A stretch of DNA of 64,000 nucleotides from Crambe crambe (lineage: Eukaryota; Porifera; Demospongiae; Poecilosclerida; Crambeidae), in the NCBI GenBank assembly GCA_963924555.1, contig OZ004582.1:8713927-8777926 (forward strand). The letters run 5' to 3'. Shown piece after piece: positions 17,163 to 64,000 of the stretch. Under the pieces are notes generated by a model, which ran no database searches, was not told where the DNA came from, and was given only the letters and a program-made list of their open reading frames with translations. Both the position numbers and the translations under genes were made by a program. Every line of letters begins with the position of its first letter. The first letter of the stretch is position 1.

Positions 17163-18668
17163 TCAGCTAGCTGCCATATATTTAAACACCCGAAATTTTA
17201 AGCTATTATTCTTTACAAATCCTCTGATTTTCAGATCATCATGACGCATAAACTTCCCTTTCCCCCATGGTTTGGACATCCTCCCATCCTCTTTGACCCG
17301 TCCAGCACTAGCATTTGGAGTACTGTCATGATATTTGATAACCTCCGTATGATGAGACTCGTCATCCCTTAGGTTCAGCAATTGAACGTAAATTGAACCT
17401 CTAAAAGGCCACTTTAGTTTGGAATCGTATTCGCCCTTAGTTAGACTTATGAACACAGACATGTAAATTCCTTTGCCTGGACCATTTCCTCCAATATCGA
17501 CCCAAAGACACATGCGATAGCCTTGATCGTGAGTATAAAACAGGGGTGAGCTCCAACCCATATCACCTTGAGTACGGCGATTCTCGTAATCATCGAGTAC
17601 AAAGGTCAGAGGAATAATTGACGAATATGCTTGAAGAACTTCAATGGATTGACGATTTTCGTCCTGTCTGGTTTTAAGTTTGTCAAATTCCGATCTAAGT
17701 TCTCTGATGTCCTGTACTTCTTTCTGGAATTGTGCCTGCATTTCTTTCTTCTCTTGTAGCAACCTTTCAATGAATTTATCGTTTTCATCGAGATGGTTTT
17801 GCTGTTGGATGAGTCTCTCTCTTAAGGTGATGTAACTACTTGCCATCAGTGAGAGATGAGATTGCATATTAGACTCTAGATGCTCCTGCAGTCGGTCAGG
17901 AGGTATCTGTTCCATACATCCAGCAAACTCGAATTCACAAGGTATGGGATCAGGGTGATTACATTTGCAGTCATTTTCGATATGGTTTTCCAAGTCACAC
18001 TGTTTTAATGACAATCCACAACCATTTGGACAAGAAACTGGTCGAGATAAGCATTCTGGTTGGTGCTCTTCGATGACATCAATATATTTGCCTTTATATT
18101 CTTGACAGAATTCGCAAGTATATGGTCTAAATGCGCACAAGTTAGATTCATGATTCTTGAGAGTTCTTCTCAAAAATGAAGATGTGTGACATAAGAAACA
18201 ATCTACTTCAGCATATTCGCAACCCAAAAAACGACGTTCGAAAACTGGCTTGGTATTGAGATGCGCTTCCAATTCTCCCAACTCTCCTGACCAGTTGCAG
18301 CCTTCTTCTCTTAGACTGCACCAGACTTTGAAACTATACAGACTTCGATGTAACCTTTTATCAGAGAAAATATCAAACTCAACCCTATTGCAAGTGGGAC
18401 AAGGCTTTCTACTGGATTTGATACGCTCTATGCAGCTTTTGCAGTAGATATATCCGCAGCAAGTAGCTTGGTAAGGCTCACGGAGAACGAGAAGACATAT
18501 TGGGCAGTTAGTTTGAAGTTCCTTAGGTGGTTCTAGGAATTCACAATCGAAGCCAACTTCTGCGTCTTTCTTTGGCTGAAGGGATGCATCGAAGGCTGGG
18601 GGTGGTAGGTCTATTCCAGAGTCTTCTTCGATACGAAGTTTGTCTTCCTTCTTTAGCTTTGCCATCAT
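17163..18668 (-). CDS. Canonical TRAF protein (RING, TRAF zinc fingers, coiled coil, MATH), intronless
   Basis: A 501-residue single exon. Tandem ATGs at 18668 and 18665 give MMAKLKKEDK. The RING starts at CPIC (C55, C58) and ends at CPTC near 94. Several Cys/His TRAF-type zinc fingers follow to about 280, then a Glu/Gln-rich coiled coil to about 345 and a full TRAF-C/MATH domain (FYTHDQGYRMCLWV, KWPFRGSIYVQLLNLRDD, SKPWG) to near the end. TRAF proteins are cytoplasmic adaptor and E3 ligases for TNF/IL-1/Toll-type receptors, trimerising through the coiled coil. The complete MATH domain sets this and the next gene apart from the shortened copies elsewhere in the window. They stand in tandem, 141 bp apart on the same strand. 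Confidence 0.93.
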   Translation of the reverse strand: MMAKLKKEDKLRIEEDSGIDLPPPAFDASLQPKKDAEVGFDCEFLEPPKELQTNCPICLLVLREPYQATCCGYIYCKSCIERIKSSRKPCPTCNRVEFDIFSDKRLHRSLYSFKVWCSLREEGCNWSGELGELEAHLNTKPVFERRFLGCEYAEVDCFLCHTSSFLRRTLKNHESNLCAFRPYTCEFCQEYKGKYIDVIEEHQPECLSRPVSCPNGCGLSLKQCDLENHIENDCKCNHPDPIPCEFEFAGCMEQIPPDRLQEHLESNMQSHLSLMASSYITLRERLIQQQNHLDENDKFIERLLQEKKEMQAQFQKEVQDIRELRSEFDKLKTRQDENRQSIEVLQAYSSIIPLTFVLDDYENRRTQGDMGWSSPLFYTHDQGYRMCLWVDIGGNGPGKGIYMSVFISLTKGEYDSKLKWPFRGSIYVQLLNLRDDESHHTEVIKYHDSTPNASAGRVKEDGRMSKPWGKGKFMRHDDLKIRGFVKNNSLKFRVFKYMAAS

Positions 18669-18809
18669 TCAATTTTACTTATCCAATTAAGAGAATAGTT
18701 GACGTCATCATTGTTATTAAAATTAATGTCAAACAAGAAGATATACCAGTGATAAAAAAATTTTAAACAGTGTTCTAAAAGCACACACTTGATACAAAAA
18801 TAAGGGGGA

Positions 18810-20228
18810 TCACATCTCAAGAGCAACATTAGATACTCTAAATTTAAGAGTATCATTCAAAACGAACTCATCTGAGTTCAGTTTCTCATGACTAATGAAA
18901 TTTACCTTTCCCCATGGCCTAGACGTCCTTCCCTCTTCCAGTACCCTACCTGAAGTTGCAATGGGAGTAGTGGCATGGTATTTAATCACTTCTTCATACA
19001 AAGAACCCTCGTCTCTTTGATTGAGTATCTGTATACTAACGGTTCCCCTAAACGGCCAATTGAGCTGACTATCGTACTCTCCTTTAGTGAAATTAAGAAA
19101 CACAGACAAACAGGATCCTCTTGTTGGTCCTCCTCCTCCAACATCCACTAAGAGGCACATGCGATACCCACGAGGGTGCGTATAGAAACCAGGTGAAGTC
19201 CATCCCACATCTAATTGAATCAAGCGCTTTTCATAGTCATCCAACGTGAAAACGACTGGCACTATTGATAAGTGGGTCTTCAGCATGTTGATAGTATCAT
19301 GATCTTCAGCTTCACGTATTTTCATTGTCTCTAGTTCACTTCGTAGAGCTTGTGTTTCTGCTCGTAGAAATTGTACTTCTTTACTTGTTTCACCTGGTGG
19401 AGTTTTCTTAAAGTAATCAGCAATCAAGCTGGATACTTTTGTCTTAACAGCTGCTTCTATATACTTGTGGACTTCACTTAACGGCACCATCTGGGATGAA
19501 GATTCAGATATATGTACACGTAACTCACATTCGTAATTCAGGTGGTAATCAAAGTCTTTACGAAGGGGGCATACCCCACACTCATTAGCACAAGGGACAG
19601 CTCTAAACGGACACTCGTTCCAATGCTTCCCCACGACGTCTTCACAAGTTCCAGTGTAGTTATTACAATACTCACATGTGTACGGTCGCTGTAGACATTT
19701 CTTCATCTCGTGTTCTTCGAGCATTCCACGGGGGTACGGTTGCTTACATAGAATGCACATCTCTTCTGAAAACTCACATCCAAAGAAGCGATGTTCAGGT
19801 TGAGGATTGAGATTCAAGTGCTCGTCAAGATGCCGCAATTCGCCTATCCATTCACACCCTTGCTCTTTATTGGTACACCGAACTTTGAACCCATAGAGGG
19901 CGTTTCGTAGTCCCCTATCCACAAAGACATCAAAATCAACATTCCTGCATGCTGGACACGGTTTTTTATCGGTATGGACACGCTCGATACAAAGACGGCA
20001 ATAGATGGTACCACAGCAGGTTGCCTGGTACGGTTCCCTCAGGATATAGAGACAAATAGGACACTCTGTTCTCAGTTCTCTTGGCGGATTGATGAAGTCA
20101 CACGCAAAGCCAACGATAAATTCTCTTCTTGGGTAGCCGGGAGCCTTACTTACTGGAACTGGAGGAGGTGGTGATCTGTATAGGTCTCCGCCTTTCGTAT
20201 CGGAAGAAGAGCCACAGCATTCTGCCAT
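18810..20228 (-). CDS. Second canonical TRAF protein, intronless, divergent from POLD1
   Basis: 472 residues starting MAECCGSSSD at 20228. The RING begins CPICLYILREPYQATCCG at about residue 55, followed by TRAF-type zinc fingers, a coiled coil (about 265-325) and a full MATH domain containing FYTHPRGYRMCLLVDVGGGG and NWPFRGTVSIQILNQRDEG, ending VSNVALEM. It is clearly paralogous to 17163-18668 throughout but well diverged, so this duplication is old compared with the recent copies downstream. Only 256 bp separate its start from that of POLD1 on the other strand, so the two probably share a promoter region. Role inferred: signalling adaptor with ubiquitin-ligase activity. Confidence 0.93.
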   Translation of the reverse strand: MAECCGSSSDTKGGDLYRSPPPPVPVSKAPGYPRREFIVGFACDFINPPRELRTECPICLYILREPYQATCCGTIYCRLCIERVHTDKKPCPACRNVDFDVFVDRGLRNALYGFKVRCTNKEQGCEWIGELRHLDEHLNLNPQPEHRFFGCEFSEEMCILCKQPYPRGMLEEHEMKKCLQRPYTCEYCNNYTGTCEDVVGKHWNECPFRAVPCANECGVCPLRKDFDYHLNYECELRVHISESSSQMVPLSEVHKYIEAAVKTKVSSLIADYFKKTPPGETSKEVQFLRAETQALRSELETMKIREAEDHDTINMLKTHLSIVPVVFTLDDYEKRLIQLDVGWTSPGFYTHPRGYRMCLLVDVGGGGPTRGSCLSVFLNFTKGEYDSQLNWPFRGTVSIQILNQRDEGSLYEEVIKYHATTPIATSGRVLEEGRTSRPWGKVNFISHEKLNSDEFVLNDTLKFRVSNVALEM

Positions 20229-20484: not shown

Positions 20485-23400
20485 ATGGCATCAAATACAC
20501 CAGCTAAAAGAAGCTTTGATTCTTCTTCAGCATCAGATGCTGGACCCTCTGAGAAGAAGGCTAAATCAGATGACTTTGATGCTTCCTTTGAAATATCGTC
20601 TTCTTTGATTGATGAAATGGAAGAATTGGAACAAGAGGAGGAGTTGTTGTGCAGTTCTAATATGCCGAGCTTGCAAACTGCTAAGGATGTGGTACGGAAT
20701 AGCAGTATAAAAACAAAGCAGAACTGGTCCCGTCCCTCTCCTCCAGATATCAACCCTGCAAATGATGTAATTTCCTTCCAGCAAATCGACATTGATCACT
20801 ACCAGGACCGTCCCATTCCTGGGATGCCGGGACTGCAGAGCGGGCAGGTTCCCATTCTGAGGATGTACGGGGTCACCATGGAAGGGAACAGCGTCTGCGC
20901 TCACTTGCATGGCTTCCTCCCGTATTTCTACGTGCCCCTTCCATGCGACCAATTCAAAGTAGAACACTGCAACGATTTCCGCCGAAGTCTTAACGATGCG
21001 GTGCTTTCTGACAGGCGTTCAAAAATGGATGAATCTATTGCCGTGGTGTCTGTTGAAATCTGCCAAAGGTGCTCCCTTTATGGTTTCCACTTTAATAAGA
21101 TGTATCCCTTTTTGAAAATCACTATGGCATCGCCCAAACTGGTGGCACCTGCTCGACGGATCGTTTGCTCGATGGAGATGGACCCATTTAATACTGTGAG
21201 TTTCCAGTCATATGAGAGTAATATTGAGTACGAGATTCGTTTCATGGTGGATTCAGGAGTCGTTGGATGCAACTGGATAGACTGCCCACCAGGTAAAAAA
21301 GAGTATAATTAATTTCATAGCGCAGAAAAACATTCATACTGGGGAAAATGCAAGCATTGATTCTAATGTCGCAGCTTTTTTCGTGACAAACTTGAGTAAA
21401 ACTGAGCATGTGTGCTCATCCCACAACTTACGAAATATACATTTTAATATATAACTTGACTCCTGGTAGAATAGGATGTATGACCCAATTTAGCTCGTGA
21501 CCAATCAAAATTGGATCTGTTACTTCTACTGTTGCTACAGGTAAATACACTTTGAGATGTCCTTCACCAGTGATGTCATCCGCTACCATATCAACCCAGA
21601 ATGGCTTCACTACTGTCGGCCAGGGAAGTGGTAGCCTCGCCCCCAAGACAAAATGCCAAATTGAGCTTGACATCTCATGGGAAAACATCGAGAGCCACAC
21701 CGCTGAGGGGGAGTGGCAGAAGATCGCTCCTGTTCGGATTCTGAGTTTTGATATCGAGTGTGCAGCAAGGAAGGGAATCTTTCCTGAACCGGAGAAGGAT
21801 CCTGTGATTCAGATTGCTAATATGGTGGTGAGACAGGGAGAGAAAGAGCCGTTTATCAAGAATGTCTTCACTCTGGAGGAGTGTGCTCCAGTTGTGGGAA
21901 GTGAGGTCATTTGCTTCGTCAAAGGCAGTAAAGAAGCCGAGCTTCTGAAGGTAAAATATCCTTGCATTCTGCTCTCTTAATGTACTTCAAGGCTTCAGGA
22001 TTGATCATACACATTTTTGTTTTCTGACTAAATTTCAGTATTTCAAGTGATATAGGATGTCCAAATTTGCCCTTTCAGTGTAACAGGATTTCCAATGAAT
22101 ATACTAATAATAGCATTATCAGGTGTTCTTTAATTAGAAATGGAGTGAGTTTGTACAGGCAGTGGACCCTGATATTATCACAGGCTACAACATTGTGAAC
22201 TTTGACCTTCCCTACTTGATAAACAGAGCCAAGAAATTGAAGGTATGATGGTTCTTTCAGAGGTGATGTTGGAGACACGTATCACCCACCCAGTAGACCT
22301 GTAGAAGATAAAGAGATGAGGAGAACATTGTTCCATTCCATTAGGGAAGGGTGGGCTAGGGGAAGTGATTAATTGTCTGTATGTATAATAATAACAGGTG
22401 AATGATTTCCCATATCTTGGACGTGTCCATAACTCCATGACTACAATGAAAGACAGTACCTTTGAGTCCAAAGCCTACGGCAAGAGGGTTAACAAGATCA
22501 TCTCCATCGAAGGCAGGGTGCAGTTTGACCTCTTTCAGGTTGGTCGGGACTTATTAAATTTGATATATGCTCCTGGGGATTTGCTACATAATAATAATTA
22601 TTCTAATTAATGGGGAAGTGCCAGAGGGCCATTAATCAAAATCTCACTCAGCTCTAAAAGCACATTACTTGCTTGCTTGCTTGCTCGCTCGCTCGCTCGC
22701 TGTCAAATGTTGCACAGTCATTGCTGTGGTAAATATCTCAACATATGCCTACGTATGTGAGCGCTATCAGGTTATAGATTATTAAGTGCCTGTACCATGC
22801 ATTAAAGGTAAGTATTCAAATGCAATTAGGGATGTTGAGGATACAAGGATGTTATTAAATTTGTATATCTGTGCATGCTGCTCACAATTATTGAACAATG
22901 CAGAATTTGTTATTATAGCTATCATGCTCATTACAGCTCCACCTTCTTAGCATAATACTTGCATGCAGCCCCTCCTCTTTTATATAGAGAGGACAAACAG
23001 AAAGGTGTAATACCTCCACTAGATGACACACCCCCAAATTGTGTTTTTGGAGGGAGATCTCTATCTTTGCTATGCCCACTTTTAGTAAACATTAAGCCCC
23101 ACCCATTTCTGCAAAGTAATATATTGTGTATGCAGTTATGAAGCAGCCCCACCCACTTTTCTCTTAGTAGTAAACAAAGGGTGTAACTTTAACAAAGGGT
23201 TGCTAATTGTTGACGGTTACAATTGCTGTCTTTAACAAAACAAGGGAGAAGGATGTCTTTTATTATACCAGGCTTCGAATGCGAGTTTACTGAACAACTT
23301 CCAAGTTTTGTGCGTTCTCATTGTCCTATTTGTCTCCTGGTCCTCCGAGAGCCGTACCAAGTCACCTGCTGTGGGAAGAGCTTCTGTAGAGCATGTATCC

Positions 23401-26400
23401 ATCGAGTTAAAGAAGATAGTGTACTCTGTCCTGCTTGCAAGCAAGATGAATTTTATGTTTATTCAGATAAAGGACTGAAGCAAAGCCTTTATAGCTTCAA
23501 AGTTTATTGCTGTAACAAAAATGAAGGCTGTGATTGGCAGGGAGAACTCGGGCAATTGGATCAGCACATCAACTCAAGTCCTGACCGAAATAAACGCTTG
23601 GAAGGATGTGCTCATACTAAAGTAAGATGTTCTTATTGTTCCAAACGTCATCGAAGATTCAAGATTGAGCGTCACGAGGGTACCCAGTGCGTCCAGAGAC
23701 CCTTTACCTGTCAAATGTGTAAGGAGTTCGAGTCCACATATGATGACGTGACTAAGAACCATGCACCTTCATGCAAGTGCAGACCTGTGGAGTGTCCTAA
23801 CAGATGTGGAAACACTTTACAACATCAAGAGCTTGAAGAGCACCTGTCAAGTACATGTCCTTTGTCGATGGTTGAGTGTGAGTTTAGCCATGCTGGTTGT
23901 GATGTCAAGATGCACAGGAAAGACCTTCCTTCCCACTTGAGTGAGAGCATGGTCAGTCACATGTCTCTACTGGCCAGAGAGAATGAAAATTTAAAATTTC
24001 AGCTCCGGAAACAGTCTGAAGATTTAACACTGATTTTTGAGTCACGCTGTGATGTGGAAAGCAAGAACCTGAAGTCCCTACTCCAGAAGCAATCTGGTGT
24101 GATTCATGCCTTGAGGAAAGAAATGAAGAAACAGCCTATCTCATTTAAGCTTGGAAAGAAAATAGCGAGAAGACGCTTATCTAAACTAAGGAAGTAGAGT
24201 ATCTTATGGCAATATAGCTCTCTTGTAGCTAGATCTATTATATTTGATTTCATTTTGAATGTATCTTTCATTAGTGCATGCTTCTTGTAGTAAAAGTTTG
24301 AATTATTCATTAGCTCTGTATTACCATATTCATGAATAGCATTTTATGCCCCGCCCTAATTTTTAACCCAAGATTCTATTAAGCATGGCTCTTGAAGTGA
24401 CAGGTTTTGATTGCGCATTTGTTGAAAAACCTCCCGAGTTTTTTCAGACCTCTTGCCCTATCTGTCTTCTAATCCTCAGAGAGCCTCACCAAGTGACTTG
24501 CTGTGGGAAGAGCTTCTGTAGAACATGTATCCAGAAGATAAAGACCAAGAAGAACCCCTGTCCTACTTGCAACAAGGAGAACTTTACTGATTTTCCCAAT
24601 CTTGGGCTACAACAACCCTTGTATGGTTTTAAGGTTCACTGTTCTAATAAAGATGAAGGCTGTGATTGGCAAGGTGAGTTGGGGCAGTTAGACAAGCACC
24701 TCAACTTGAATCCTGACAAAGATAAACAAGAAATAGGCTGTGCTTATACCAAAGTCAAGTGCTTACACTGTAGTGAACTGTATCAGCGACGTTTGATAAA
24801 GCACCATCAGACTTTAGAATGCTTATTGAGACCATTCAGCTGTGAGATGTGTAATGAGTTCAAGTCCACTTACGATGACGTGACAAAGAACCATGCACCT
24901 TCATGTAAGTGCAGACCTGTGGAGTGTCCTAACACATGTGGAAACACTTTACAACATCAGAAGCTTAAGGACCACGTATCAAACATTTGCCCGTTATCAA
25001 TGGTCGATTGTGAATTTACTGGTTGTGAGATCAAAATGCACAGGAAAGATCTTCCTTTGCACTTGAGTGAGAGCGTGGTCACTCACTTGTCTTTACTAGC
25101 CAGAACGTACGGGGAGAAGATTGCAATGTTAGAAAGAGAAAATGAAAATTTGAAATTGGAGCTGCAGAACCAAGCACGCATAACTAAATCGTTTCTTCCT
25201 CATTTTTACGAACCTCCGTTTGACATTACATGTGTGAAAAGAAGCACTGGATGGGTATCTGAACCATTCTACAGTCATGGAGGGTACAAGTTGCTATTCA
25301 CTCTGAAAACTAATAATTTCGGAAGTTCTGAGAACTCTTACTTCTTTTGTTTTGATGTGCTAAATAGTGAATATAAAGTGAAGACACCATGTACTCTCTC
25401 CATCACTGCTGAGATCATTGATCAACTCGAAGGCAAGGCTAATATTGCTCGTGCTTTTGAAGTGTGTTATCCCTCGGTAACAGGCAAGACATGTACACTG
25501 AGTCTTACTGGGAAGAAATATCTGAAGAATGATCGTTTTATCGTCAGAATAACTAATATCACAAGTCCATGACTAATGTATTTGGGGGGAAGAGTACTGT
25601 AAGTATATTTATTTTGGGGGAACATGTGTCTAAAATGTGGCTATATCTGACAAATAATCATTGTGGTTATTATACCAGTACTGTGGTTCATTTGTTTTAA
25701 GTGGCTACCGAGTATAACCACACTGATGTATGTTTTTATCACTCCCAGAACACTCACTCCATGAGCGCTAATTGGCCAGTCTCAGAACCTTTATTGTATT
25801 GTGGCCCATGAAACTCATATCTTGCTCAGCTTAATAAATGTACTAACTACTCAAATACCAGCTGGCTATGTTCACAGTTATCGCCATTGATTTTTAGTTC
25901 TATGGAAATTAATTATATATGGCAAAATTTGTTTTACATCTATAAACTTCACCTGTTCCTAGCTATCAAGCGCTTCTCTGGCCCATCATTTAATTAAGAT
26001 GATGGGTGCATGTGATTGGGGTGGAGAACCTTCAAATATATTAATTAGGCACCCATAGCTGTGTTCTCTCACCCTGTGGCTATAGTAATCATATGAGTGG
26101 GAAGATCCTTATGTGGTAAAACATATCACATGATCTGACAAAACACAACTTGTGGTGGTATGTCTCTAGTAGCAATGTGAATTTGTAGAAAAAAGCCCCA
26201 AGAATAATTATTTGCAGTCTTCTTGCCCTATTTGTCTCTAATCCTCCGAGAACCATACCAAGTGACCTGCTGTGGGAATAGCTTCTGTAGAGGGTGTATC
26301 CAGAAGATAAAGACCAAGAACAAGCCCTGTCCTACTTGCAAACAAGATAACTTCACTTTCTTCCCTACAGCAATCTTTAAGGTTTACTGTTCTAATACAG

Positions 26401-43018: not shown

Positions 43019-43072
<54 letters not shown>

Positions 43073-43556: not shown

Positions 43557-43587
<31 letters not shown>

Positions 43588-46017: not shown

Positions 46018-46122
46018 GTAAGTTAGCGAATCTTTATTAATCTCCTTTTATATGCCTACTATACAGCACTAAAATTGTCCAAAGTAGTAAGACATTTAAT
46101 TTTAACTTTTATGGTATTTAGG

Positions 46123-48569: not shown

Positions 48570-48649
48570 AGAGACAGCAACTGTTTTACTGTTTTCATAT
48601 TTTCAAAATCTTATTTGCGTCTTGTGATTAAATTTTTAAGGGTGGGATG

Positions 48650-48655
48650 AATAAA
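48650..48655 (+). terminator. Likely poly(A) signal of RPS10
   Basis: AATAAA 81 bp after the TAG stop, the first such hexamer downstream. Confidence 0.6.
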
Positions 48656-54000: not shown

Positions 54001-54167
54001 CAAAAGACTCCAACTTCAGTAACCATGCCTACATACAAAACCGTATTGGGTGCAATGGTATTTCTTACCAATCTTGCTCACTCACTAAGGCATGCTCTAG
54101 AAGGAGAGAGTGGTTATTTTGCTGGGCCAACCGAATAGCTTCTTCCAGAGCATACAGTCCTTCCTTG
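51029..54167 (-). CDS. ANAPC5: Anaphase-promoting complex subunit 5, C-terminal part (5' exons not in view)
   Basis: Fourteen exons on the minus strand: 54167-54086, 54028-53936, 53847-53780, 53674-53546, 53424-53295, 53211-53137, 53046-52925, 52191-52123, 52062-52027, 51969-51828, 51694-51625, 51561-51472, 51360-51266 and 51115-51029 (stop TAA). All are GT-AG and phases agree. Recognisable APC5 TPR stretches: YALEEAIRLAQQNNHSLLLE, LSKFEQELKFDRALN and AHLYNAIGYSTERDKALNHI. ANAPC5 is a scaffold subunit of the APC/C ubiquitin ligase that drives exit from mitosis. The highest exon begins with a proper acceptor (cag|C), so the gene continues upstream, but no further ANAPC5 exon is visible up to 64000; the TRAF-like cluster there is probably in its next intron. 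Confidence 0.9.
52306..52880. repeat. 40-bp tandem repeat, about 14 copies, in ANAPC5 intron
   Basis: The unit 'cataagaggtctaacacaag' plus 'ggttctaacgactggtctca' has an exact 40-bp period. Copies are almost identical apart from an a/g change (acacaag / acacagg) shared by four neighbours near 52690-52830 and a few edge differences. Confidence 0.96.
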
Positions 54168-54549
54168 CTGTGAGGAGAGAGAGGGAGGGAAGGAGGGAGG
54201 AGATTATGTCAATCTCTCGATAAATTAATTGATGTATGGTGAGCAGGGCGATTTTAAACAGTGGGACAATTTGGAATACTTGAAATTTCTCCTGAGGATA
54301 GAGAAGATTAATCCCACTAAAAGGATTAATCACATGGTAACATTAATAGCAGAGCTGGTAGGAGTAATACCCTCTAATATGTTCCACCCCTTTTTCATCC
54401 ATATTAAGCTCAGGACTAAGTGAATAACAGCATTAGTAGCATTCATGAGCTGGTAGGAGTAACACGTTCCACCCCTTTTTCATCCATATTAAGTCATGTA
54501 GTCCTTACTTAGTCTCCAGTCCCACCCCCTTCTACAGTTTTAGCTAAAC
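54168..54549 (+). other. 5' flank of TRAF-like gene with duplicated upstream block
   Basis: 'gagctggtaggagtaa' followed by 'ttccaccccttttt' and 'catccatattaag' occurs twice (54350-54412 and 54446-54493), a direct duplication of probable promoter DNA. ATTCATGA lies at 54441. Confidence 0.6.
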
Positions 54550-55749
54550 ATGGCTCTTGCAGTTACAGGTTTTGAGTGTGAATTTATTGAACAACCTCCT
54601 GAAGTTTTGCAGTCTTCTTGCCCTATCTGTCTCCTAATCCTCCGAGAGCCTCACCAAGTGACCTGCTGTGGGAAGAGCTTCTGTAGAACATGTATCCAGC
54701 AGATAAAGACAAAGAACAAGCCCTGTCCTACTTGCAACAAGAAGAATGTTTCGAATTTCCCTAATCTTGGCTTACAACAACCCTTGTATGGTTATAAGGT
54801 CTACTGTTCTAATAAAGATGATGGCTGTGATTGGCAAGGTGAGTTGGGGCAGTTAGACAAGCACCTCAACTCGAATCCTGACCAAGATAAGCAAGAAATA
54901 GGCTGTTCTTATACCAAAGTCAAGTGCTTACACTGTAGTGAACTGTATCAGCGACGTTCTATAAAATGCCACCAGATACTCAAATGCTTACTGAGACCAT
55001 TCACCTGTAAAATGTGTAAGGAGTTCGAGTCCACATACGATGACGTGACTAAGAACCATGCACCTTCATGCAAGTGCAGACCTGTGGAGTGTCCTAACAC
55101 ATGTGGAAACATTTTACAACATCATGAGCTTGAAAAGCACCTGTCAAGTGTGTGTTCTTTATCGATGGTCGAGTGTGAGTTTAGCCATGCTGGTTGTGAC
55201 GTTAAGATACACAGGAAAGACCTTCCTTCCCACTTGAGTGAGAGCATGGTCACTCACATGTCTCTACTGGCAAGAGATAATAAGAGACAGAACTCGAAAA
55301 TTACATCATTGGCCAGAGAACAGCATTTACAAATTACTCAACTAGTTCGAGAGAATGAAAATCAGAGTGTAGAAATAAAGAAGTTGAAGTCAGAGTTAGA
55401 ATTAACGAGATCATTCATCTCACGTGTACCTCCTATTGACTTTAAATTAAGATTAGGGGAATCCTCTCAGCCATTTTATAGCCACATTGGTGGCTACAAA
55501 CTAAAACTGACTATAGAAAAAGAAACATTTTGGGATGGTTTTGTCATCACTATGTTAGAAAGTGAATTTGAAGTGAAGTCCCCATACAATCTCTCAATCA
55601 CTGCAATGGTTATGGATCAAGTCAACGATGAAGACCACAGGACTTGCAATGTAAAGCTTTCCTCCCCTTCTAAGACTGCAAGTATAAGTATATTTGATAT
55701 GAAGGATGGTTATTTTATGATCAGGATAACTGATATTGCAATTGAGTAG
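54550..55749 (+). CDS. TRAF-like gene, divergent MATH-like end (upstream of visible ANAPC5 exons)
   Basis: 399 residues from ATG 54550 ([12 protein letters not shown]). RING, TRAF zinc fingers, a coiled coil of about 65 residues (KITSLAREQHLQITQLVREN) and a MATH-like end with [20 protein letters not shown] and MKDGYFMIRITDIAIE. The N-terminal half matches the 49260 gene best, but the C-terminal 60 residues and about 250 bp of 3' flank match the 56931 and 59251 genes almost exactly. The gene is therefore a mosaic, as expected from gene conversion or unequal crossing-over. Confidence 0.9.
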   Translation: MALAVTGFECEFIEQPPEVLQSSCPICLLILREPHQVTCCGKSFCRTCIQQIKTKNKPCPTCNKKNVSNFPNLGLQQPLYGYKVYCSNKDDGCDWQGELGQLDKHLNSNPDQDKQEIGCSYTKVKCLHCSELYQRRSIKCHQILKCLLRPFTCKMCKEFESTYDDVTKNHAPSCKCRPVECPNTCGNILQHHELEKHLSSVCSLSMVECEFSHAGCDVKIHRKDLPSHLSESMVTHMSLLARDNKRQNSKITSLAREQHLQITQLVRENENQSVEIKKLKSELELTRSFISRVPPIDFKLRLGESSQPFYSHIGGYKLKLTIEKETFWDGFVITMLESEFEVKSPYNLSITAMVMDQVNDEDHRTCNVKLSSPSKTASISIFDMKDGYFMIRITDIAIE

Positions 55750-56261
55750 TATACGTATACACACATTATAGTGAGGTAGTTATCATGCAAGGTCTGTACA
55801 TTACACACATAGATATGGATGTATGTCAGTTACTGGCTATGTATTATCATTATCATGCACATCAGTCATTGATGATTATAGTGGTTGCAATATCATGGGG
55901 GTGGGAGTGGACAGGATGTAGATTCCTCCTTCATGTGACTCACATATGCAAAGAGAACTGCTTCCTTCTCTCAGGGTGTATCAGCCATTAATCCAGTCTC
56001 ATTCCCATACATAAGAGAGGGAAGTCTGTGGAGCAAGACTAAAGTTAGTTATCAAAAATTGCCATGTGGAAGTACTGACCTCCACAAAAGTGCATATTTC
56101 ATAAGACACAGATTAGAGAGTGAATCAGAATATTCTCCACTCACGAATCATTTGGAGGGATGGGTCAAAAATAAGAATAGAAAAGTGCCCAGAGAGATTA
56201 GGAGTAAATATTTTGACCACTTGTGAATGATTAATTTTATTCCCTTTGATACTGTCAGATA
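55750..56261 (+). other. 3' flank unit shared between TRAF-like copies
   Basis: From the stop codon to 'atcagccattaatccag' it is almost identical to 58164-58440, 60499-60780 and 62786-63060. The part after 56040 is shared only with 63080-63300. No gene is claimed. Confidence 0.7.
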
Positions 56262-56548
56262 CTAAGACCATGCACCTTCATGCAAGTGCAGACCTGTGTG
56301 TGTGGTTTCCTAACGGATGTGTAAATATTTTATAGCATCAAGAGCTTGAAGAGCACCTGTCAAGTGTGCGTCCTTTATCGATGGTTCAGTGTGAGTTTAG
56401 TCATGCTGGTTGTGCTGTCAAGATACCTTCCTTCTCTTCAACGATTGCAAGTACAGAAATGGTATAAGAGTTTACTAAATATTGGAAGGATGGTTATTAT
56501 ATGATCAGGATAACTGATATTCCAATGGAGTTGCTGTAATTTGTGTGT
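56262..56548 (+). pseudogene. TRAF-like relic: zinc-finger piece joined to MATH end
   Basis: 'accatgcaccttcatgcaag' and 'agagcttgaagagcacctg' come from the third zinc-finger region. The sequence then jumps to the MATH end ('ggatggttattatatgatc', 'aggataactgatattcc'). The coiled coil and most of MATH are deleted, and the frame is broken (gtgtgtgtggtttcc, tatag). An almost identical relic lies at 63301-63590. Confidence 0.8.
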
Positions 56549-56689
56549 TAATAGTTGGGATTATAAAGAATTCTGTCCAAATCATTCGAATAGTACACAC
56601 ATAGCTATGCAATAACTATAGGTCTGAGTACATTACTAGGGCAATATGGAACATTTCACAGCAAGCGAACGAGCAAGTATTCCTATAGC

Positions 56690-56830
56690 TAGGCTCTAAT
56701 GGCTACAAACTTAAAGTGGCGATTGAAAGGAACAATTCTTTCTTTTTTATCTTTACTATGCTAGAAGTAAAGTTTCCGTATAAGCTCTCAACCACTGTAA
56801 TGGTTATTGATCAAGTCAAATTGAAATCCT
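56690..56830 (+). pseudogene. TRAF-like MATH relic
   Basis: 'ggctacaaacttaaagtg', 'actatgctagaagtaaag' and 'gttattgatcaagtcaa' match the middle of the MATH-like domain, with deletions. It sits directly upstream of the 56931 gene. Confidence 0.7.
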
Positions 56831-56930
56831 ACTCCCAAATCCATGGATTGATAAGTCTAGACCAAAATTTACAAATATTAACTAGCATGTGATTTCTTCC
56901 ATATTAGGTTACTTCCTGCCTAGTAAAAAC

Positions 56931-58163
56931 ATGGCGATGGGTTTTGAGTGTGAATTTGTTGAACTACCTCCTGAAGTTTTTCAGTCTTCTTGCCCTATTT
57001 GTCTCATGATCCTCCGAGAACCGTACCAAGTGACCTGCTGTGGGAATAGCTTCTGTAGAGCATGTATCCAGAAGATAAAGACCAAGAACAAGCCCTGTCC
57101 TACTTGCAACAAGGAGAACTTTTCTAATTTCCCCAATCTTGGCCTACAACGACCCTTGTATGGTTTTAAGGTTTACTGTTCTAATAAAGATGAAGGCTGT
57201 GATTGGCAAGGTGAGTTGGGGCAGTTAGATAAGCACCTCAACTTGAATCCTGACAAAGATGAACAAGAAATAGGCTGTGCCTACACCAGAGTCAAGTGCT
57301 TACACTGCAGTGAACTGTATCAGCGATGTTCGATAAAATACCACAAGACTTCAGAATGCTTACTGAGACCATTCAGCTGTGAGATGTGTAATGAGTTCAA
57401 GTCCACATACGATGACGTGACTAAGAACCATGCACCTTCATGCAAGTGCAGACCTGTGGAGTGTCCTAACAGATGTGGAAATACTTTACAACATCAAGAG
57501 CTTGAAGAGCACCTGTCAAGTGTGTGTCCTTTATCAATGGTCGAGTGTGAGTTTAGCCATGCTGGTTGTGATGTCAAGATGCACAGGAAAGACCTTCCTT
57601 CCCACTTGAGTGAGAGCGTGGTCACTCACATGTCTCTACTGGCCAGGGAGAATGAAAGACAGAGCTCGCAAATTGAAAGACAGAGCTTGCAAATTGAAAG
57701 ACAGAACTTGCAAATTGAAAGACAGAGCTTGCAAATTGAAAGCCAGGACTCAGAAATTAAGAGACAGAATAAAGAAATCATTTTGCTGAAGTTGCTGGTT
57801 AGAGGGAAGAAAGAGATGAATCTACAAAAGATCTCATGTGTACCTCCTATTGTTTTTAAATTAAGAACAGGGGAATCCTCTCAGCCATTTTATAGCCACA
57901 TGGGTGGCTACAAACTAAAACTGACTATAGAAAAAAGAGTACTTTGGCATGATTTAGTCATCACTATGTTAGAAAGTGAATTTGAAGTGAAGTCCCCATA
58001 CAATCTCTCAATCACTGCAATGGTTATGGATCAAGTCAACGATGAAGACCACAGGACTTGCAATGTAAAGCTTTCCTCCCCTTCAAAGACTGCAAGTATA
58101 AGTATATTTGATATGAAGGATGGTTATTTTATGATCAGGATAACTGATATTGCAATTGAGTAG
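56931..58163 (+). CDS. TRAF-like gene with heptad-repeat coiled coil
   Basis: 410 residues from ATG 56931 ([14 protein letters not shown]); the frame extends upstream without an [29 protein letters not shown] zinc fingers, then a striking heptad repeat (ERQSSQI, ERQSLQI, ERQNLQI, ERQSLQI, ESQDSEI, KRQNKEI) encoded by a 21-bp tandem repeat at about 57652-57778, then the MATH-like end (TGESSQPFYSHMGGYKLKLT). The coil should give a regular trimeric or longer rod. It is nearly identical from the zinc fingers onward to the 59251 gene, but its first 30 residues differ. Confidence 0.91.
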   Translation: MAMGFECEFVELPPEVFQSSCPICLMILREPYQVTCCGNSFCRACIQKIKTKNKPCPTCNKENFSNFPNLGLQRPLYGFKVYCSNKDEGCDWQGELGQLDKHLNLNPDKDEQEIGCAYTRVKCLHCSELYQRCSIKYHKTSECLLRPFSCEMCNEFKSTYDDVTKNHAPSCKCRPVECPNRCGNTLQHQELEEHLSSVCPLSMVECEFSHAGCDVKMHRKDLPSHLSESVVTHMSLLARENERQSSQIERQSLQIERQNLQIERQSLQIESQDSEIKRQNKEIILLKLLVRGKKEMNLQKISCVPPIVFKLRTGESSQPFYSHMGGYKLKLTIEKRVLWHDLVITMLESEFEVKSPYNLSITAMVMDQVNDEDHRTCNVKLSSPSKTASISIFDMKDGYFMIRITDIAIE

Positions 58164-58479
58164 TATACGTATACACACATTTTAGTTAGGTAGTTATCAT
58201 GCAAGGTCTGTACATTACACACATAGATATGAATGTATGTCAGTTACTGGCTATGTATTATCATTATCATGCACATCAGTCATTGATGATTATAGTGGTT
58301 GCAATATCATGGGGGTGGGAGTGGACAGGATGTAGATTCCTCCTTCATGTGACTCACATATGCAAAGAGAACTGCTTCCTTCTCTCAGGGTGTATCAGCC
58401 ATTAATCCAGTCTCATTCCCATACATAAGAGAGGGAAGTCTGTGGAGCAAGACTAAAGTTAGACTAAAGTTTAGTCACA

Positions 58480-58725
58480 GTGGCTATTGAAGGGAACATA
58501 TTCCTTTTTTTAACCTTCACCATGCTAGAAAGTGAATTTGAAGTGAAGCCCTCATACAACCTCTCAATCACTGCAATGGTTATCGATCAAGTCAACAATA
58601 AAGACCATGAGACTTATAATTTAAAGCTTTCTTATCCTTCAAAGACTGCAGAAATTTATCTCTCCTCAATGTATATGAAGGATGGTTGTTATATGATCAG
58701 GATAACTGACATTACAATTGAATAA
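58480..58725 (+). pseudogene. MATH-like C-terminal half without upstream gene (copy 1)
   Basis: An open frame of 81 residues (GNIFLFLTFTMLESEFEVKP ... RITDITIE) equal to the last two thirds of a MATH-like domain. There is no RING, zinc finger or start of its own. It is preceded by 'tttagtcacag', which could act as a splice acceptor, so use as an alternative 3' exon is not excluded. The identical copy is at 60815-61060. Confidence 0.7.
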
Positions 58726-59250
58726 TAAACACACATACAATAGCTCAAGATGCAAGGCTTGTACATCCACACATAACTAAAAATTTTTAAATATGTGTAT
58801 CAGTTGTTGGTTAAGAAACGTGGGAGTGACACTTCCTGGAAGGCTAATTCAGTATACTTGGGTTTACAAGACACCTCTTCTCTGTCTAGAGAACTTTACA
58901 GTATTCACCGTTATGACTTATGTAACCAAAAAAGGTATTTTGTGCACTTCAGAGAGCCCAACACCATTGAAAGAGTTCTCTGCAAGTTGATTGGGAGAAG
59001 ATCTCTGAGATCAATAATCAGGTTGGTTGAAGGACACCCATGCACACTTATTAAGTATACACGTGTGATGATAAAATGATATAGGTAAATAAAGCCACAG
59101 TTACTTACTTATGGTCTAGTAGAATAGGACTTATCAACCACAGCTAGACATGTGGATAAGTAAAGTTTATAGAGTGATAGTATTCTACTCACAGTGTGAT
59201 GATCAAATCATTGGTCATGTGACATCCGGTATACTTCCCAGTTTTAAAAC

Positions 59251-60498
59251 ATGTCTCTAGATCTGGCAGTGACAGGTTTTAAGTGTGAATTTGTTGAAAA
59301 ACCTCCTGAAGTTTTGCAGTCTTCCTGCCCTATCTGTCTCCTAATCCTCCGAGAGCCGTACCAAGTGACCTGCTGTGGGAATAGCTTCTGTAGAGCATGT
59401 ATCCAGAAGATAAAGACCAAGAACAAGCCCTGTCCTACTTGCAACAAGGAGAACTTTACCGATTACTCTAATCTTGGTCTACAACGACCCTTGTATGGTT
59501 TTAAGGTTTACTGTTCTAATAAAGATGAAGGCTGTGATTGGCAAGGTGAGTTGGGGCAGTTAGATAAGCACCTCAACTTGAATCCTGACAAAGATGAACA
59601 AGAAATAGGCTGTGCCTACACCAGAGTCAAGTGCTTACACTGCAGTGAACTGTATCAGCGATGTTCGATAAAATACCACAAGACTTCAGAATGCTTACTG
59701 AGACCATTCAGCTGTGAGATGTGTAATGAGTTCAAGTCCACATACGATGACGTGACTAAGAACCATGCACTTTCATGCAAGTGCAGACCTGTGGAGTGTC
59801 CTAACAGATGTGGAAACACTTTACAACATCAAGAGCTTGAAGAGCACCTGTCAAGTGTGTGTCCTTTATCAATGGTCGAGTGTGAGTTTAGCCATGCTGG
59901 TTGTGATGTCAAGATGCACAGGAAAGACCTTCCTTCCCACTTGAGTGAGAGCGTGGTCACTCACATGTCTCTACTGGCCAGGGAGAATGAAAGACAGAGC
60001 TCGGAAATTGAAAGACAGAGCTTGCAAATTGAAAGACAGAACTTGCAAATTGAAAGACAGAGCTTGCAAATTGAAAGCCAGGACTCAGAAATCAAGAGAC
60101 AGAATAAAGAAATCATTTTGCTGAAGTTGCTGGTTAGAGGGAAGAAAGAGATGAATCTACAAAAGATCTCATGTGTACCTCCTATTATTTTTAAATTAAG
60201 AACAGGGGAATCCTCTCAGCCATTTTATAGCCACATGGGTGGCTACAAACTAAAACTGACTATAGAAAAAAGAGTACTTTGGCATGATTTAGTCATCACT
60301 ATGTTAGAAAGTGAATTTGAAGTGAAGTCCCCATACAATCTCTCAATCACTGCAATGGTTATCGATCAAGTCAACGATGAAGACCACAGGACTTGCAATG
60401 TAAAGCTTTCCTCCCCTTCAAAGACTGCAAGTATAAGTATATTTGATATGAAGGATGGTTATTTTATGATCAGGATAACTGATATTGCAATTGAGTAG
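59251..60498 (+). CDS. TRAF-like gene with heptad-repeat coiled coil (tandem duplicate)
   Basis: 415 residues from ATG 59251 (MSLDLAVTGFKCEF). [26 protein letters not shown] zinc fingers ([14 protein letters not shown]), six Gln/Arg-rich heptads in the coiled coil (about 59989-60115) and the MATH-like end. It differs from the 56931 gene by only a handful of residues after the RING, and from the 61586 gene by almost none in the first 110 residues. With its upstream flank it forms a unit repeated 2335 bp further on. Confidence 0.92.
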   Translation: MSLDLAVTGFKCEFVEKPPEVLQSSCPICLLILREPYQVTCCGNSFCRACIQKIKTKNKPCPTCNKENFTDYSNLGLQRPLYGFKVYCSNKDEGCDWQGELGQLDKHLNLNPDKDEQEIGCAYTRVKCLHCSELYQRCSIKYHKTSECLLRPFSCEMCNEFKSTYDDVTKNHALSCKCRPVECPNRCGNTLQHQELEEHLSSVCPLSMVECEFSHAGCDVKMHRKDLPSHLSESVVTHMSLLARENERQSSEIERQSLQIERQNLQIERQSLQIESQDSEIKRQNKEIILLKLLVRGKKEMNLQKISCVPPIIFKLRTGESSQPFYSHMGGYKLKLTIEKRVLWHDLVITMLESEFEVKSPYNLSITAMVIDQVNDEDHRTCNVKLSSPSKTASISIFDMKDGYFMIRITDIAIE

Positions 60499-60814
60499 TA
60501 TACGTATACACACATTATAGTGAGGTAGTTATCATGCAAGGTCTGTACATTACACACATAGATATGGATGTATGTCAGTTACTGGTTATGTATTATCATT
60601 ATCATGCACATCAGTCATTGATGATTATAGTGGTTGCAATATCATGGGGGTGGGAGTGGACAGGATGTAGATTCCTCCTTCATGTGACTCACATATGCAA
60701 AGAGAACTGCTTCCTTCTCTCAGGGTGTATCAGCCATTAATCCAGTCTCATTCCCATACATAAGAGAGGGAAGTCTGTGGAGCAAGACTAAAGTTAGACT
60801 AAAGTTTAGTCACA

Positions 60815-61060
60815 GTGGCTATTGAAGGGAACATATTCCTTTTTTTAACCTTCACCATGCTAGAAAGTGAATTTGAAGTGAAGCCCTCATACAACCTCTC
60901 AATCACTGCAATGGTTATCGATCAAGTCAACAATAAAGACCATGAGACTTATAATTTAAAGCTTTCTTATCCTTCAAAGACTGCAGAAATTTATCTCTCC
61001 TCAATGTATATGAAGGATGGTTGTTATATGATCAGGATAACTGACATTACAATTGAATAA
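60815..61060 (+). pseudogene. MATH-like C-terminal half without upstream gene (copy 2)
   Basis: Identical in translation to 58480-58725, 2335 bp away, and carried along by the tandem duplication. Confidence 0.7.
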
Positions 61061-61585
61061 TAAACACACATACAATAGCTCAAGATGCAAGGCTTGTACA
61101 TCCACACATAACTAAAAATTTTTAAATATGTGTATCAGTTGTTGGTTAAGAAACGTGGGAGTGACACTTCCTGGAAGGCTAATTCAGTATACTTGGGTTT
61201 ACAAGACACCTCTTCTCTGTCTAGAGAACTTTACAGTATTCACCGTTATGACTTATGTAACCAAAAAAGGTATTTTGTGCACTTCAGAGAGCCCAACACC
61301 ATTGAAAGAGTTCTCTGCAAGTTGATTGGGAGAAGATCTCTGAGATCAATAATCAGGTTGGTTGAAGGACACCCATGCACACTTATTAAGTATACACGTG
61401 TGATGATAAAATGATATAGGTAAATAAAGCCACAGTTACTTACTTATGGTCTAGTAGAATAGGACTTATCAACCACAGCTAGACATGTGGATAAGTAAAG
61501 TTTATAGAGTGATAGTATTCTACTCACAGTGTGATGATCAAATCATTGGTCATGTGACATCCGGTATACTTCCCAGTTTTAAAAC

Positions 61586-62785
61586 ATGTCTCTAGATCTG
61601 GCAGTGACAGGTTTTAAGTGTGAATTTGTTGAAAAACCTCCTGAAGTTTTGCAGTCTTCCTGCCCTATCTGTCTCCTAATCCTCCGAGAGCCGTACCAAG
61701 TGACCTGCTGTGGGAATAGCTTCTGTAGAGCATGTATCCAGAAGATAAAGACCAAGAACAAGCCCTGTCCTACTTGCAACAAGGAGAACTTTACCGATTA
61801 CTCTAATCTTGGTCTACAACGACCCTTGTATGGTTTTAAGGTTTACTGTTCTAATAAAGATGAAGGCTGTGATTGGCAAGGTGAGTTGGGGCAGTTAGAC
61901 AAGCACCTCAACTTGAATCCTGACAAAGATAAGCAAGAAATAGGCTGTGCTTATACCAAAGTCAAGTGCTTACACTGTAGTGAACTGTATCAGCGATGTT
62001 CGATAAAACGTCATCAGACTTCAGAATGCTTACTGAGACCATTCAGCTGTGAGATGTGTAAGGAGTTCAAGTCCACATACGATGACGTGACTAAGAACCA
62101 TGCACTTTCATGCAAGTGCAGACCTGTGGAGTGTCCTAACACATGTGGAAACACTTTACTACATCAAGAGCTTGAAGAGCACCTGTCAAGTGTGTGTCCC
62201 TTGTCGATGGTTGAGTGTGAGTTTAGCCATGCTGGTTGTGATGTCAAGATGCACAGGAAAGACTTTCCTTCCCACTTGAGTGAGAGCATGGTCACTCACA
62301 TGTCTCTACTGGCCAGGGAGAATAAAAGACAGAGCTTGCAAATTGAAAGCCAGGACTCAGAAATCAAGAGACAGAATAAAGAAATCATTTTGCTGAAGTC
62401 ATCGATTGCTTTGCTGGTTAGAGGGAAGAAAGAGATGAATCTACAAAAGATCTCACGTGTACCTCCTATTGTTGTTAAATTAAGATTAGGGGAATTCTCT
62501 CAGCCATTTTATAGCCACATTGGTGGCTACAAACTCTTACTGACTATAGAAAAAAGAGGACTTTGGCATCATTTAGTCATCACTATGTTAGAAAGTGAAT
62601 TTGAAGTGAAGTCCCCATACAATCTCTCAATCACTGCAATGGTTATCGATCAAGTCAGCAATAAAGACCACAAGACTCGCAATGTAAAGGTTTCCTATTC
62701 TTCAAAGACTGCAAGTATAATTTCCCCACAGTATATGAAGGATGGTTATTTTATGATCAGGATAACTGATATTGCAATTGAGTAG
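61586..62785 (+). CDS. TRAF-like gene, third tandem copy with shortened coiled coil
   Basis: 399 residues from ATG 61586, the same first 110 residues as the 59251 gene. The coiled coil has only three of the heptads (KRQSLQI, ESQDSEI, KRQNKEI) but carries an extra SSIAL. The MATH-like part is different again ([40 protein letters not shown]). The zinc-finger half carries variants seen in other copies (CPNTCGN, KRHQTSEC). It shows directly how heptad loss and MATH replacement create a new version within a recent duplicate. Confidence 0.92.
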   Translation: MSLDLAVTGFKCEFVEKPPEVLQSSCPICLLILREPYQVTCCGNSFCRACIQKIKTKNKPCPTCNKENFTDYSNLGLQRPLYGFKVYCSNKDEGCDWQGELGQLDKHLNLNPDKDKQEIGCAYTKVKCLHCSELYQRCSIKRHQTSECLLRPFSCEMCKEFKSTYDDVTKNHALSCKCRPVECPNTCGNTLLHQELEEHLSSVCPLSMVECEFSHAGCDVKMHRKDFPSHLSESMVTHMSLLARENKRQSLQIESQDSEIKRQNKEIILLKSSIALLVRGKKEMNLQKISRVPPIVVKLRLGEFSQPFYSHIGGYKLLLTIEKRGLWHHLVITMLESEFEVKSPYNLSITAMVIDQVSNKDHKTRNVKVSYSSKTASIISPQYMKDGYFMIRITDIAIE

Positions 62786-63300
62786 TATATGTATACACAC
62801 ATTATAGTAGGTAGTTATCATGCAAGGGCTGTACATTACACACATAGATATGGATGTATGTCAGTTACTGGTTATGTATTATCATTATCATGCACATCAG
62901 TCATTGATGATTATAGTGGTTGCAATATCATGGGGGTGGGAGTGGACAGGATGTAGATTCCTCCTTCATGTGACTCACATATGCAAAGAGAACTGCTTCC
63001 TTCTCTCAGGGTGTATCAGCCATTAATCCAGTCTCATTCCCATACATAAGAGAGGGAAGTCTGTGGAGCAAGACTAAAGTTAGTTATCTCTATCATCAAA
63101 AATTGCCATGTGGAAGTACTGACCTCCACAAAAGTGCATATTTCATAAGACACAGATTAGAGAGTGAATCAGAATATTCTCCACTCATGAATCATTTGGA
63201 GGGATGGGTCAAAAATAAGAATAGAAAAGTGCCCAGAGAGATTAGGAATAAATATTTTGACCACTTGTGAATGATTAATTTTATTCCCTTTGATACTGTC
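62786..63300 (+). other. 3' flank unit shared between TRAF-like copies
   Basis: Matches 55750-56261 along its length (including the stretch after 'gtggagcaagactaaagtt'), not the flanks of the two nearer copies, which carry the MATH half at that point instead. Confidence 0.7.
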
Positions 63301-63590
63301 AGATACTAAGACCATGCACCTTCATGCAAGTGCAGACCTGTGTGTGTGGTTTCCTAACGGATGTGTAAATATTTTATAGCATCAAGAGCTTGAAGAGCAC
63401 CTGTCAAGTGTGCGTCCTTTATCGATGGTTCAGTGTGAGTTTAGTCATGCTGGTTGTGCTGTCAAGATACCTTCCTTCTCTTCAACGATTGCAAGTACAG
63501 AAATGGTATAAGAGTTTACTAAATATTGGAAGGATGGTTATTATATGATCAGGATAACTGATATTCCAATGGAGTTGCTGTAATTTGTGG
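63301..63590 (+). pseudogene. TRAF-like relic, second copy of the zinc-finger/MATH deletion product
   Basis: Same deletion structure and same broken frame as 56262-56548. It then joins a coiled-coil segment at 63591. Confidence 0.8.
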
Positions 63591-64000
63591 CAAATTGAAA
63601 GCCAGGACTCAGAAATTAAGAGACAAAATAAAGAAATCATTTTATTGAAGTCATCGATCACTCTGCTGGTTAGAGGGAATAAAGGGTTGAAGTCAGAGCT
63701 ACAAAAGATCTCACATGTACCTCCAATTGGTTTTAAATTAGCAGTAGGAGAATCCTCTCAGCCATTTTATAGCCACATTGGTGGCTACAAACTCAAATTG
63801 ACTCTTGAACAGAGCACATTATGTAGGAATTTAGCTGTCACTTTGCTAGAAAGTGAATTTGAAGTGAAGTCCCCATACGAGCTCTCGATCACTGCAATGG
63901 TTATCGATCAAGTCAACAATAAAGACCACAAGACTCGCAATGTAAAGCTTTCCTCCCCTTCAAAGACTGCAAGTATAATGTCGTTTCCTATCTCAATATA
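63591..64000 (+). pseudogene. TRAF-like coiled coil plus MATH-like part, no RING, open at window edge
   Basis: Open frame from QIESQDSEIKRQNKEI through [20 protein letters not shown] and SITAMVIDQVNNKDHKTRNV to the window end. The RING and fingers that should come first are replaced by the relic at 63301. It is a 5'-truncated copy, or the 3' part of something spliced. Its end is not seen. Confidence 0.65.

Follow-up and report, generated by a model that had tools for sequence, protein, structure and literature searches.

The locus examined here raises the question of why so many intact signalling genes sit inside the introns of essential genes, how they came to be there and what they might do. 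The analysed DNA is a 64,000-nt stretch of a sponge genome (C3:8713927-8777926, hereafter the window), together with the next 40 kb (104 kb in all, the extended scale), and the genome was searched over 143.1 Mb in 119 contigs. The genes are of the TRAF type. We suggest, as an explanation that is probable by a small measure only, that they are TRAF-type adaptor or E3 genes maintained in introns as a repertoire under birth and death, with diversified docking. A bolder version is tentative and would have to be called doubtful at present. It describes a polymorphic TRAF adaptor repertoire in which the MATH docking loops are variable while the RING and zinc fingers stay constant. Such a repertoire would have been made by tandem duplication and segmental exchange in introns of essential replication and cell-cycle genes, at an address predating the split of several sponge lineages.

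Judged by their sequences, the array proteins are of the TRAF type, with a RING, TRAF zinc fingers, a coiled coil and mostly a C-terminal MATH domain. An N-terminal RING is known from all TRAFs but TRAF1. Among the 13 intact copies of the window, named here by their start positions, the RING model is over its cut-off in 11 (not 18810 and 49260), and a match to the TRAF6 RING-zinc finger region was found. The zf-TRAF model passes the Pfam cut-off in 12, with 18810 scoring 26.0 against 27. The C-terminal domain is MATH by profile and fold in all but 23253 and 31074, mostly below the Pfam cut-off. An earlier note on this DNA had described RING/TRAF-zinc-finger genes. Both domains are present, but the description was incomplete, as all but two copies also carry a MATH-related C-terminal domain. 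Copies 23253 and 31074 have no MATH match and so lack the TRAF-C domain expected of the TRAF family; they are best classed, on sequence, as MATH-less TRAF relatives rather than TRAF proper, and the protein ends in a polybasic tail. Decay of these short copies was ruled out, given that their kin in two other genomes are also MATH-less. MATH decay, as suggested by the Pfam scores, was likewise ruled out for the modelled copy by fold and profile. An AlphaFold2 model of the 61586 copy predicts a long helix at residues 235-281 for the coiled coil. In-frame repeats of 21 bp, one heptad each, occur in the coiled coils at 57653-57769 and 59988-60103, although a general heptad rule for coiled-coil length was rejected, lengths not being multiples of seven in general.

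Each of the 13 genes in the open reading frame (ORF) list of the window has a start and a stop and encodes 310-501 aa. They are intronless in the sense of one open frame, and a non-coding first exon is possible. Ten further intact copies follow directly downstream, giving 23 in 72 kb (C3:8731092-8802764), of which 20 are nested in introns. The count of 13 intact single-exon genes in the earlier note is upheld, and so are its placements. Six copies lie in POLD1 introns, where two GT..AG introns hold five (intron A) and one (intron B, antisense). Four lie upstream of an ANAPC5 exon, and they proved to be enclosed by an intron once the ANAPC5 5' exon was located 35 kb off. One lies between the convergent RPS10 and ANAPC5 genes (49260..50465; RPS10 recognized by S10_plectin, 6e-15), and the remaining two stand divergent, head to head, upstream of POLD1. 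The note's estimate of about eight broken pieces in the window was too high, as tblastn with the copies at 1e-4 gives five touching it (11 in the window plus 40 kb). The copies and fragments are as follows.

17163..18668, minus strand: TRAF gene, long type, 501 aa, canonical MATH (4.7e-25), divergent from POLD1
18810..20228, minus strand: TRAF gene, long type, 472 aa, canonical MATH (5.8e-24), divergent from POLD1
23253..24197, plus strand: MATH-less TRAF-type gene, 314 aa, polybasic tail, old subtype, POLD1 intron A
24385..25572, plus strand: TRAF gene, 395 aa, diverged MATH, POLD1 intron A
26142..26531, plus strand: TRAF fragment, RING to first zinc fingers, POLD1 intron A (tblastn)
26633..27916, plus strand: TRAF gene, 427 aa, diverged MATH, POLD1 intron A
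29408..30580, plus strand: TRAF gene, 390 aa, diverged MATH, POLD1 intron A
31074..32006, plus strand: MATH-less TRAF-type gene, 310 aa, POLD1 intron A
35548..36768, minus strand: TRAF gene, 406 aa, C-terminal domain homologous to the others, no Pfam MATH match, antisense in POLD1 intron B
49260..50465, plus strand: TRAF gene, 401 aa, between convergent RPS10 and ANAPC5
54550..55749, plus strand: TRAF gene, 399 aa, mosaic, ANAPC5 intron
56219..56856, plus strand: TRAF fragment, ANAPC5 intron (tblastn)
56931..58163, plus strand: TRAF gene, 410 aa, 21-bp in-frame repeats in coiled coil, ANAPC5 intron
58438..58722, plus strand: TRAF fragment, C-terminal domain, ANAPC5 intron (tblastn)
59251..60498, plus strand: TRAF gene, 415 aa, tandem twin of the 56931 copy, ANAPC5 intron
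60773..61057, plus strand: TRAF fragment, C-terminal domain, ANAPC5 intron (tblastn)
61586..62785, plus strand: TRAF gene, 399 aa, AlphaFold2-modelled, hypervariable residues 322-329 and 377-389, ANAPC5 intron
63263..64000, plus strand: TRAF fragment(s) continuing to 65100 past the window, ANAPC5 intron (tblastn)

A search of the whole genome for the family, proposed in the earlier note, extends this picture. There are 43 occurrences of the RING signature T-C-C-G-x-x-[FY]-C across the 143 Mb, 24 of them at this locus, and none of the reversed signature used as a control, so the family signal goes beyond chance. Profile searches returned 388 zf-TRAF and 239 MATH candidates; 150 of each were scored and all 150 passed the Pfam cut-off in both cases. 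These counts are lower bounds (at least 150 each), and the MATH count takes in non-TRAF proteins.

The copies differ in a patterned way. Pairwise counts over 15 copies (the 14 of the ANAPC5 intron and 49260) give ratios of non-synonymous to synonymous differences (pN/pS) of 0.29 for the RING, 0.34 for the zinc fingers, 0.78 for the coiled coil and 0.70 for the C-terminal domain. Within the latter, loop 1 (residues 322-329) reaches 0.99 and loop 2 (377-389) 1.14, both with wide bootstrap ranges, against 0.51 for the remainder, and the segments F308-H311, G314-L317 and S337-F339 are identical in all 15 copies. Loop 1 forms the tip of a hairpin (316-324/327-335) in the model and aligns to the beta3-beta4 loop of TRAF5. 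In TRAF2, beta3 and the beta3-beta4 loop are described as a polar pocket for receptor tails, and beta6 with the beta6-beta7 loop as a serine finger (PMC6125299). Loop 1 thus appears to correspond to the TRAF2 receptor pocket, with a putative role in receptor-tail binding, and loop 2 lies near the beta6-beta7 region, where the alignment is poor. Among 101 C-terminal windows, loop 1 ranks 1, 1, 1, 3, 18 and 28 for variability in six sets from other genomes; in the sets with ranks 18 and 28 the top windows begin at 382 and 371, which is closer to loop 2. Per-site C-terminal variability correlates with that of the array copies in five of the six sets (rho 0.29-0.44), the remaining set giving 0.13 (p 0.20). 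The fraction of F/W/Y/H in loop 1 is 0.24 versus 0.12 in whole proteins of this genome, and 0.11-0.27 in the other sets.

The RING itself is unusual. All 23 copies share the spacing C-X2-C-X11-C-C-X4-C-X2-C-X10-C-X2-C, and CCG is invariant across 74 aligned proteins. CCG, CxCG or KCG takes the place of CGH across 34 RINGs checked (window and fetched loci). This departs from the canonical C3HC4 type, in which histidine is the fourth zinc ligand. The RING of RBBP6, which was also recovered by sequence search, is called C4C4 or C3NC4 and has nearly the array spacing as given in PMC1360078; C-X2-C-X11-C-C followed by C-X2-C is found in 23/23 array copies. The array RING differs from it in having X10 rather than X12 before the last C-X2-C, and the DWNN domain and zinc knuckle of RBBP6 are not among the Pfam matches of the array copies. 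The array RING may be described as C4C4-like, fitting in spacing apart from X10 for X12, with putative zinc binding through the CC pair.

How the copies arose can be read from their surroundings. Positions 56940-60797 and 59275-63083 are 96% identical over 3,863 bp, defining a 2,335-bp tandem unit, and likeness between copies tends to fall off with distance (rho 0.28, a value reached in 39 of 2000 permutations). Shared flanks, a single orientation in the ANAPC5 intron and likeness by distance mark tandem duplication within the intron. The earlier note had spoken of copying into introns. Insertion of separate copies is not supported, since in the ANAPC5 intron all point the same way and adjacent ones have flanking sequence in common. 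Retrogenes would leave scattered copies whose flanks differ, a pattern that the ANAPC5 array does not show; outside the ORF, the older copies in POLD1 introns have little in common. The copies recombine. The pairwise homoplasy index (PHI) on 15 copies detects recombination in the coding region as a whole and in its zinc-finger part (0/1000 permutations each), and the 54550 copy is a mosaic, with a coiled coil 1.3% from the 68361 copy and a C-terminus 4.4% from the 56886 copy. An identical element, GTCATGTGACATCCGG, stands about 20-40 bp before the ATG in 8 of 14 ANAPC5-intron copies (59251, 61586 and six downstream array copies), which may reflect shared descent only.

The copies appear younger than their address. 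Trees were built from 129 proteins and, more carefully, from 55. A branch (98/96; recovered in 99% of 200 bootstrap trees) separates the 19 expanded copies and nine second-contig proteins from the rest, and other genomes have their own TRAF clusters; on this sequence basis the 19 copies are a clade special to this genome. The MATH-less copies 23253 and 31074 group with an old MATH-less subtype having relatives in two other genomes. Relatives of the POLD1 first exon lie on contigs of 177525, 52219 and 70498 bp; TRAF relatives, too, are found on contigs of these sizes. Relatives of the F-BAR exon lie on contigs of 177525 and 213528 bp, sizes that also carry TRAF relatives. The POLD1-linked address thus looks old and the copies new. 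The earlier note had reasoned that finding the copies unchanged and in place in distant sponges would mean an old, static family. The shared neighbourhood does seem to exist, with POLD1 and TRAF on equal-size contigs, but the copies form genome-specific clades, and the note's picture of a large, young, active birth-and-death family of single-exon, intron-living genes of mixed ages is borne out by counts, introns and trees. Single ORFs of about 400 aa are also common among the relatives in other genomes, though in a predicted-protein database that favours single ORFs, so a single-exon state probably preceded the arrays.

A second contig offers a view on variation. Among the matches listed, clustered at 90%, at least 22 proteins come from the same species, 21 on a contig of 1,410,613 bp and one on a contig of 36,336 bp. 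Twelve are identical to copies here (eight at the locus, seven of them on the long contig, and four at 8.23 Mb). The other ten comprise one at 99.7% over its length, seven at 83-97.5% and two (P0002 and P0007) without a counterpart at 90% or more. The strongest case is copy 26633, differing from its nearest second-contig protein in 74 of 435 aligned columns. These differences suggest haplotype, assembly or individual variation.

The host genes were established from exon matches and splice junctions. POLD1 exons match POLD1 of 6s1m with E 0. The ANAPC5 intron measures 34,993 bp on the minus strand, from 89160 down to 54168 on the extended scale, and holds 14 intact TRAF genes, four of them in the window and all 14 antisense to ANAPC5. 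Splicing the exon that ends at 89161 to the one that begins at 54167 keeps the frame, and the joined piece aligns without gaps across the junction to residues 298-345 of ANAPC5 in 4ui9 (E 8.5e-6). The Pfam match to ANAPC5 is weak (E 0.49), and so are single stretches of another match (i-Evalue 0.02, 9 and 1.1e+03), which as a whole reaches 7e-6.

20485..39500 (right end approximate), plus strand: POLD1, DNA polymerase delta catalytic subunit, first exon within ORF 20485-21312
22539..32216, plus strand: POLD1 intron A, 9,678 bp, GT..AG, five intact TRAF-type genes and one fragment
35220..37287, plus strand: POLD1 intron B, 2,068 bp, GT..AG, one antisense TRAF gene
41445..45565, minus strand: F-BAR (44879-45565) and SH3 (41445-41666) exons of a gene we take to be PACSIN-like, synteny marker
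46027..48573 (extent approximate), plus strand: RPS10, S10_plectin match 6e-15, other part near 48522
51000..54167 (left end approximate), minus strand: ANAPC5 3' exons, in-window part, exon start at 54167
54168..64000, minus strand: ANAPC5 intron, in-window part

Highly uniform minisatellites occur among the ANAPC5 3' exons (52315-52878, 40 bp x 14, 99%) and within a POLD1 intron (34487-34871, 55 bp x 7, 98%). An ORF with an ALS2CR8 domain lies directly past ANAPC5 (L011:7632-9233). Another single-ORF E3-like gene near the array, at 11247-13361 on the plus strand, encodes 704 aa with RING, B-box, filamin and NHL repeats (TRIM-NHL type). Farther on, at 96758-102559 of the extended scale (L012, C3:8807927-8817926), there is a tandem array of related ORFs, about four in number and each of some 190 aa (MDPKVSINSKL..). 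The last one is broken across two frames, and the two ORFs scanned gave no Pfam match. At C15:865549 a cathepsin-like frame carries CGSSYAF, presumably a silicatein-type active site, which would fit a siliceous sponge.

Taken together, a constant RING with TRAF zinc fingers, a coiled coil of variable length and a constrained MATH sandwich with varying beta3-beta4 and, less surely, beta6-beta7 loops could work as follows. The coiled coil would multimerise the protein, the RING and first zinc finger would act with an E2 as in TRAF6, and the MATH loops of each copy would dock a different receptor or adaptor tail. The array might then feed many recognition specificities into one ubiquitin output, most likely in the sensing of microbes or self. 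Tandem duplication and recombination among copies are seen in the sequences, as are genome-specific clades at the apparently old POLD1-linked address. Unequal exchange within an intron would spare the host message, so that the POLD1 and ANAPC5 introns could tolerate gain and loss of copies; exchange between arrays would delete essential exons. Sponge TRAFs respond to lipopolysaccharide (LPS) or bacteria, up or down depending on treatment (PMC8242945, PMC6678784), and the putative role in immunity or self-recognition is drawn from these published responses, TRAF kinship and loop variability.

Several observations weigh against a docking repertoire at this address. Of the 13 copies, just two score above the Pfam cut-off for MATH and three have no MATH match at E 0.05; the AlphaFold2 model was made for one copy alone (61586..62785). 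The position of TRAF2 Arg393 is T or A in array copies by alignment. The usual RING histidine is missing in 34/34 RINGs, none having CGH, and E3 activity is only assumed because of this lack. Linkage of POLD1, F-BAR and TRAF in other genomes was matched by equal contig size in bp only, and contigs of 355630, 667579 and 1912103 bp hold POLD1 and F-BAR relatives with no TRAF among the best 120 of 272. PHI gives no signal within the RING part (839/1000) or the C-terminal domain alone (936/1000) of the 15 copies, and loop 1 ranks as low as 18 and 28 in two of the six other-genome sets. Loop pN/pS is about 1 and not clearly above it, and loop 1 pS is also high at 0.52. Positive selection is not claimed because of this high pS; relaxed constraint or alignment error would be compatible with both values. 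Such values could equally come from neutral or nearly neutral birth and death, in which the N-terminal E3 module is kept, the MATH loops vary as unused parts and the copies are redundant. A MATH domain that is shortened and in most copies fails the Pfam cut-off, the existence of a MATH-less subtype and the five fragments in the window would suit this explanation, which is possible though clearly short of probable. It accounts poorly for a constrained framework around the loops with three segments identical in 15/15 copies, for the place of loop 1 among the top three of 101 windows in four of the six sets from other genomes, and for the richness of loop 1 in F/W/Y/H here.

Diversified E3 ligases might also serve non-immune roles in development, protein quality control or contraction, the expansion being unrelated to microbes. 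TRAFs and SIAH-type E3s do have many roles. Yet sponge TRAFs are regulated by LPS or bacteria, albeit in reports on other copies than these (PMC8242945, PMC6678784), and rapid copy turnover would fit conflict better than housekeeping, which leaves such roles rather improbable as the explanation. Retrocopies or mobile-element cargo landing in introns would explain why every copy has a single ORF and why copies occur on either strand. Such an origin was judged very unlikely, however, as 14/14 ANAPC5-intron copies share one orientation, flanks are shared through the 2,335-bp unit, and relatedness follows position; many relatives elsewhere are single ORFs too, so that the single-exon state probably predates the arrays. 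The near-identical tandem units 56931/59251 could further hint at uncollapsed haplotypes or misjoined repeats. An assembly artefact is nevertheless hardly credible, given that there is no N in 104 kb, that the introns splice in frame and that the 1,410,613-bp contig (C3 is 9,683,886 bp) carries proteins identical to 11 copies, seven at the locus. The last point is weakened in that this contig may itself be another assembly of the same animal.

The repertoire that we favour differs from TRAF6, TRAF2/3/5 and TRAF4 in its single-ORF genes with 23 intact copies at one locus, its short MATH with a hypervariable beta3-beta4 loop, and its RING with a CCG pair and no histidine. Animal innate repertoires are usually seen as diversified at the sensor (NLR, SRCR, Ig). 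The NLR, TRIM and IAP expansions of invertebrates are cases of birth and death of ubiquitin or sensor genes, and the array differs from these in its domains. In this animal, which has no adaptive immune system, the diversity seems to lie in the adaptor/E3 layer, and the variable part falls at the site through which known TRAFs recognise receptors. If true, a polymorphic TRAF repertoire would represent immune or self-recognition diversity at the level of the adaptor rather than the receptor. The 14-gene array in one ANAPC5 intron could also become a test case for essential genes hosting fast-evolving arrays.

Enrichment of TRAFs in sponges and corals is already published. Acropora is reported to have 32 TRAF genes (PMC4083563), and TRAF domain-like domains are described as enriched in Stylissa and Amphimedon (PMC4772301). 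The present locus resembles these expansions as a TRAF excess in a sessile marine animal. It departs from the reports, which as cited give counts or enrichment, in the intron nesting, the map of constant and variable parts and the shared address. In the titles and abstracts found in the open-licence literature on sponge and coral TRAFs and on nested tandem arrays, no intron-nested TRAF arrays or hypervariable sponge MATH loops were described. The TRADD-N/Death-like repertoire of Amphimedon (PMC8195603) is comparable as a large lineage-specific intracellular signalling set with constant and variable parts, though built on a different domain. Pfam TRADD_N has no match in this genome, a model that may miss the NCOA6-type domains of that report. 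Organisms with TRADD-N expansions are said there to lack a matching MATH expansion. The at least 150 MATH matches over cut-off in this genome set it apart from the Amphimedon repertoire and bear on that statement, though Pfam TRADD_N shows no TRADD-N expansion here.

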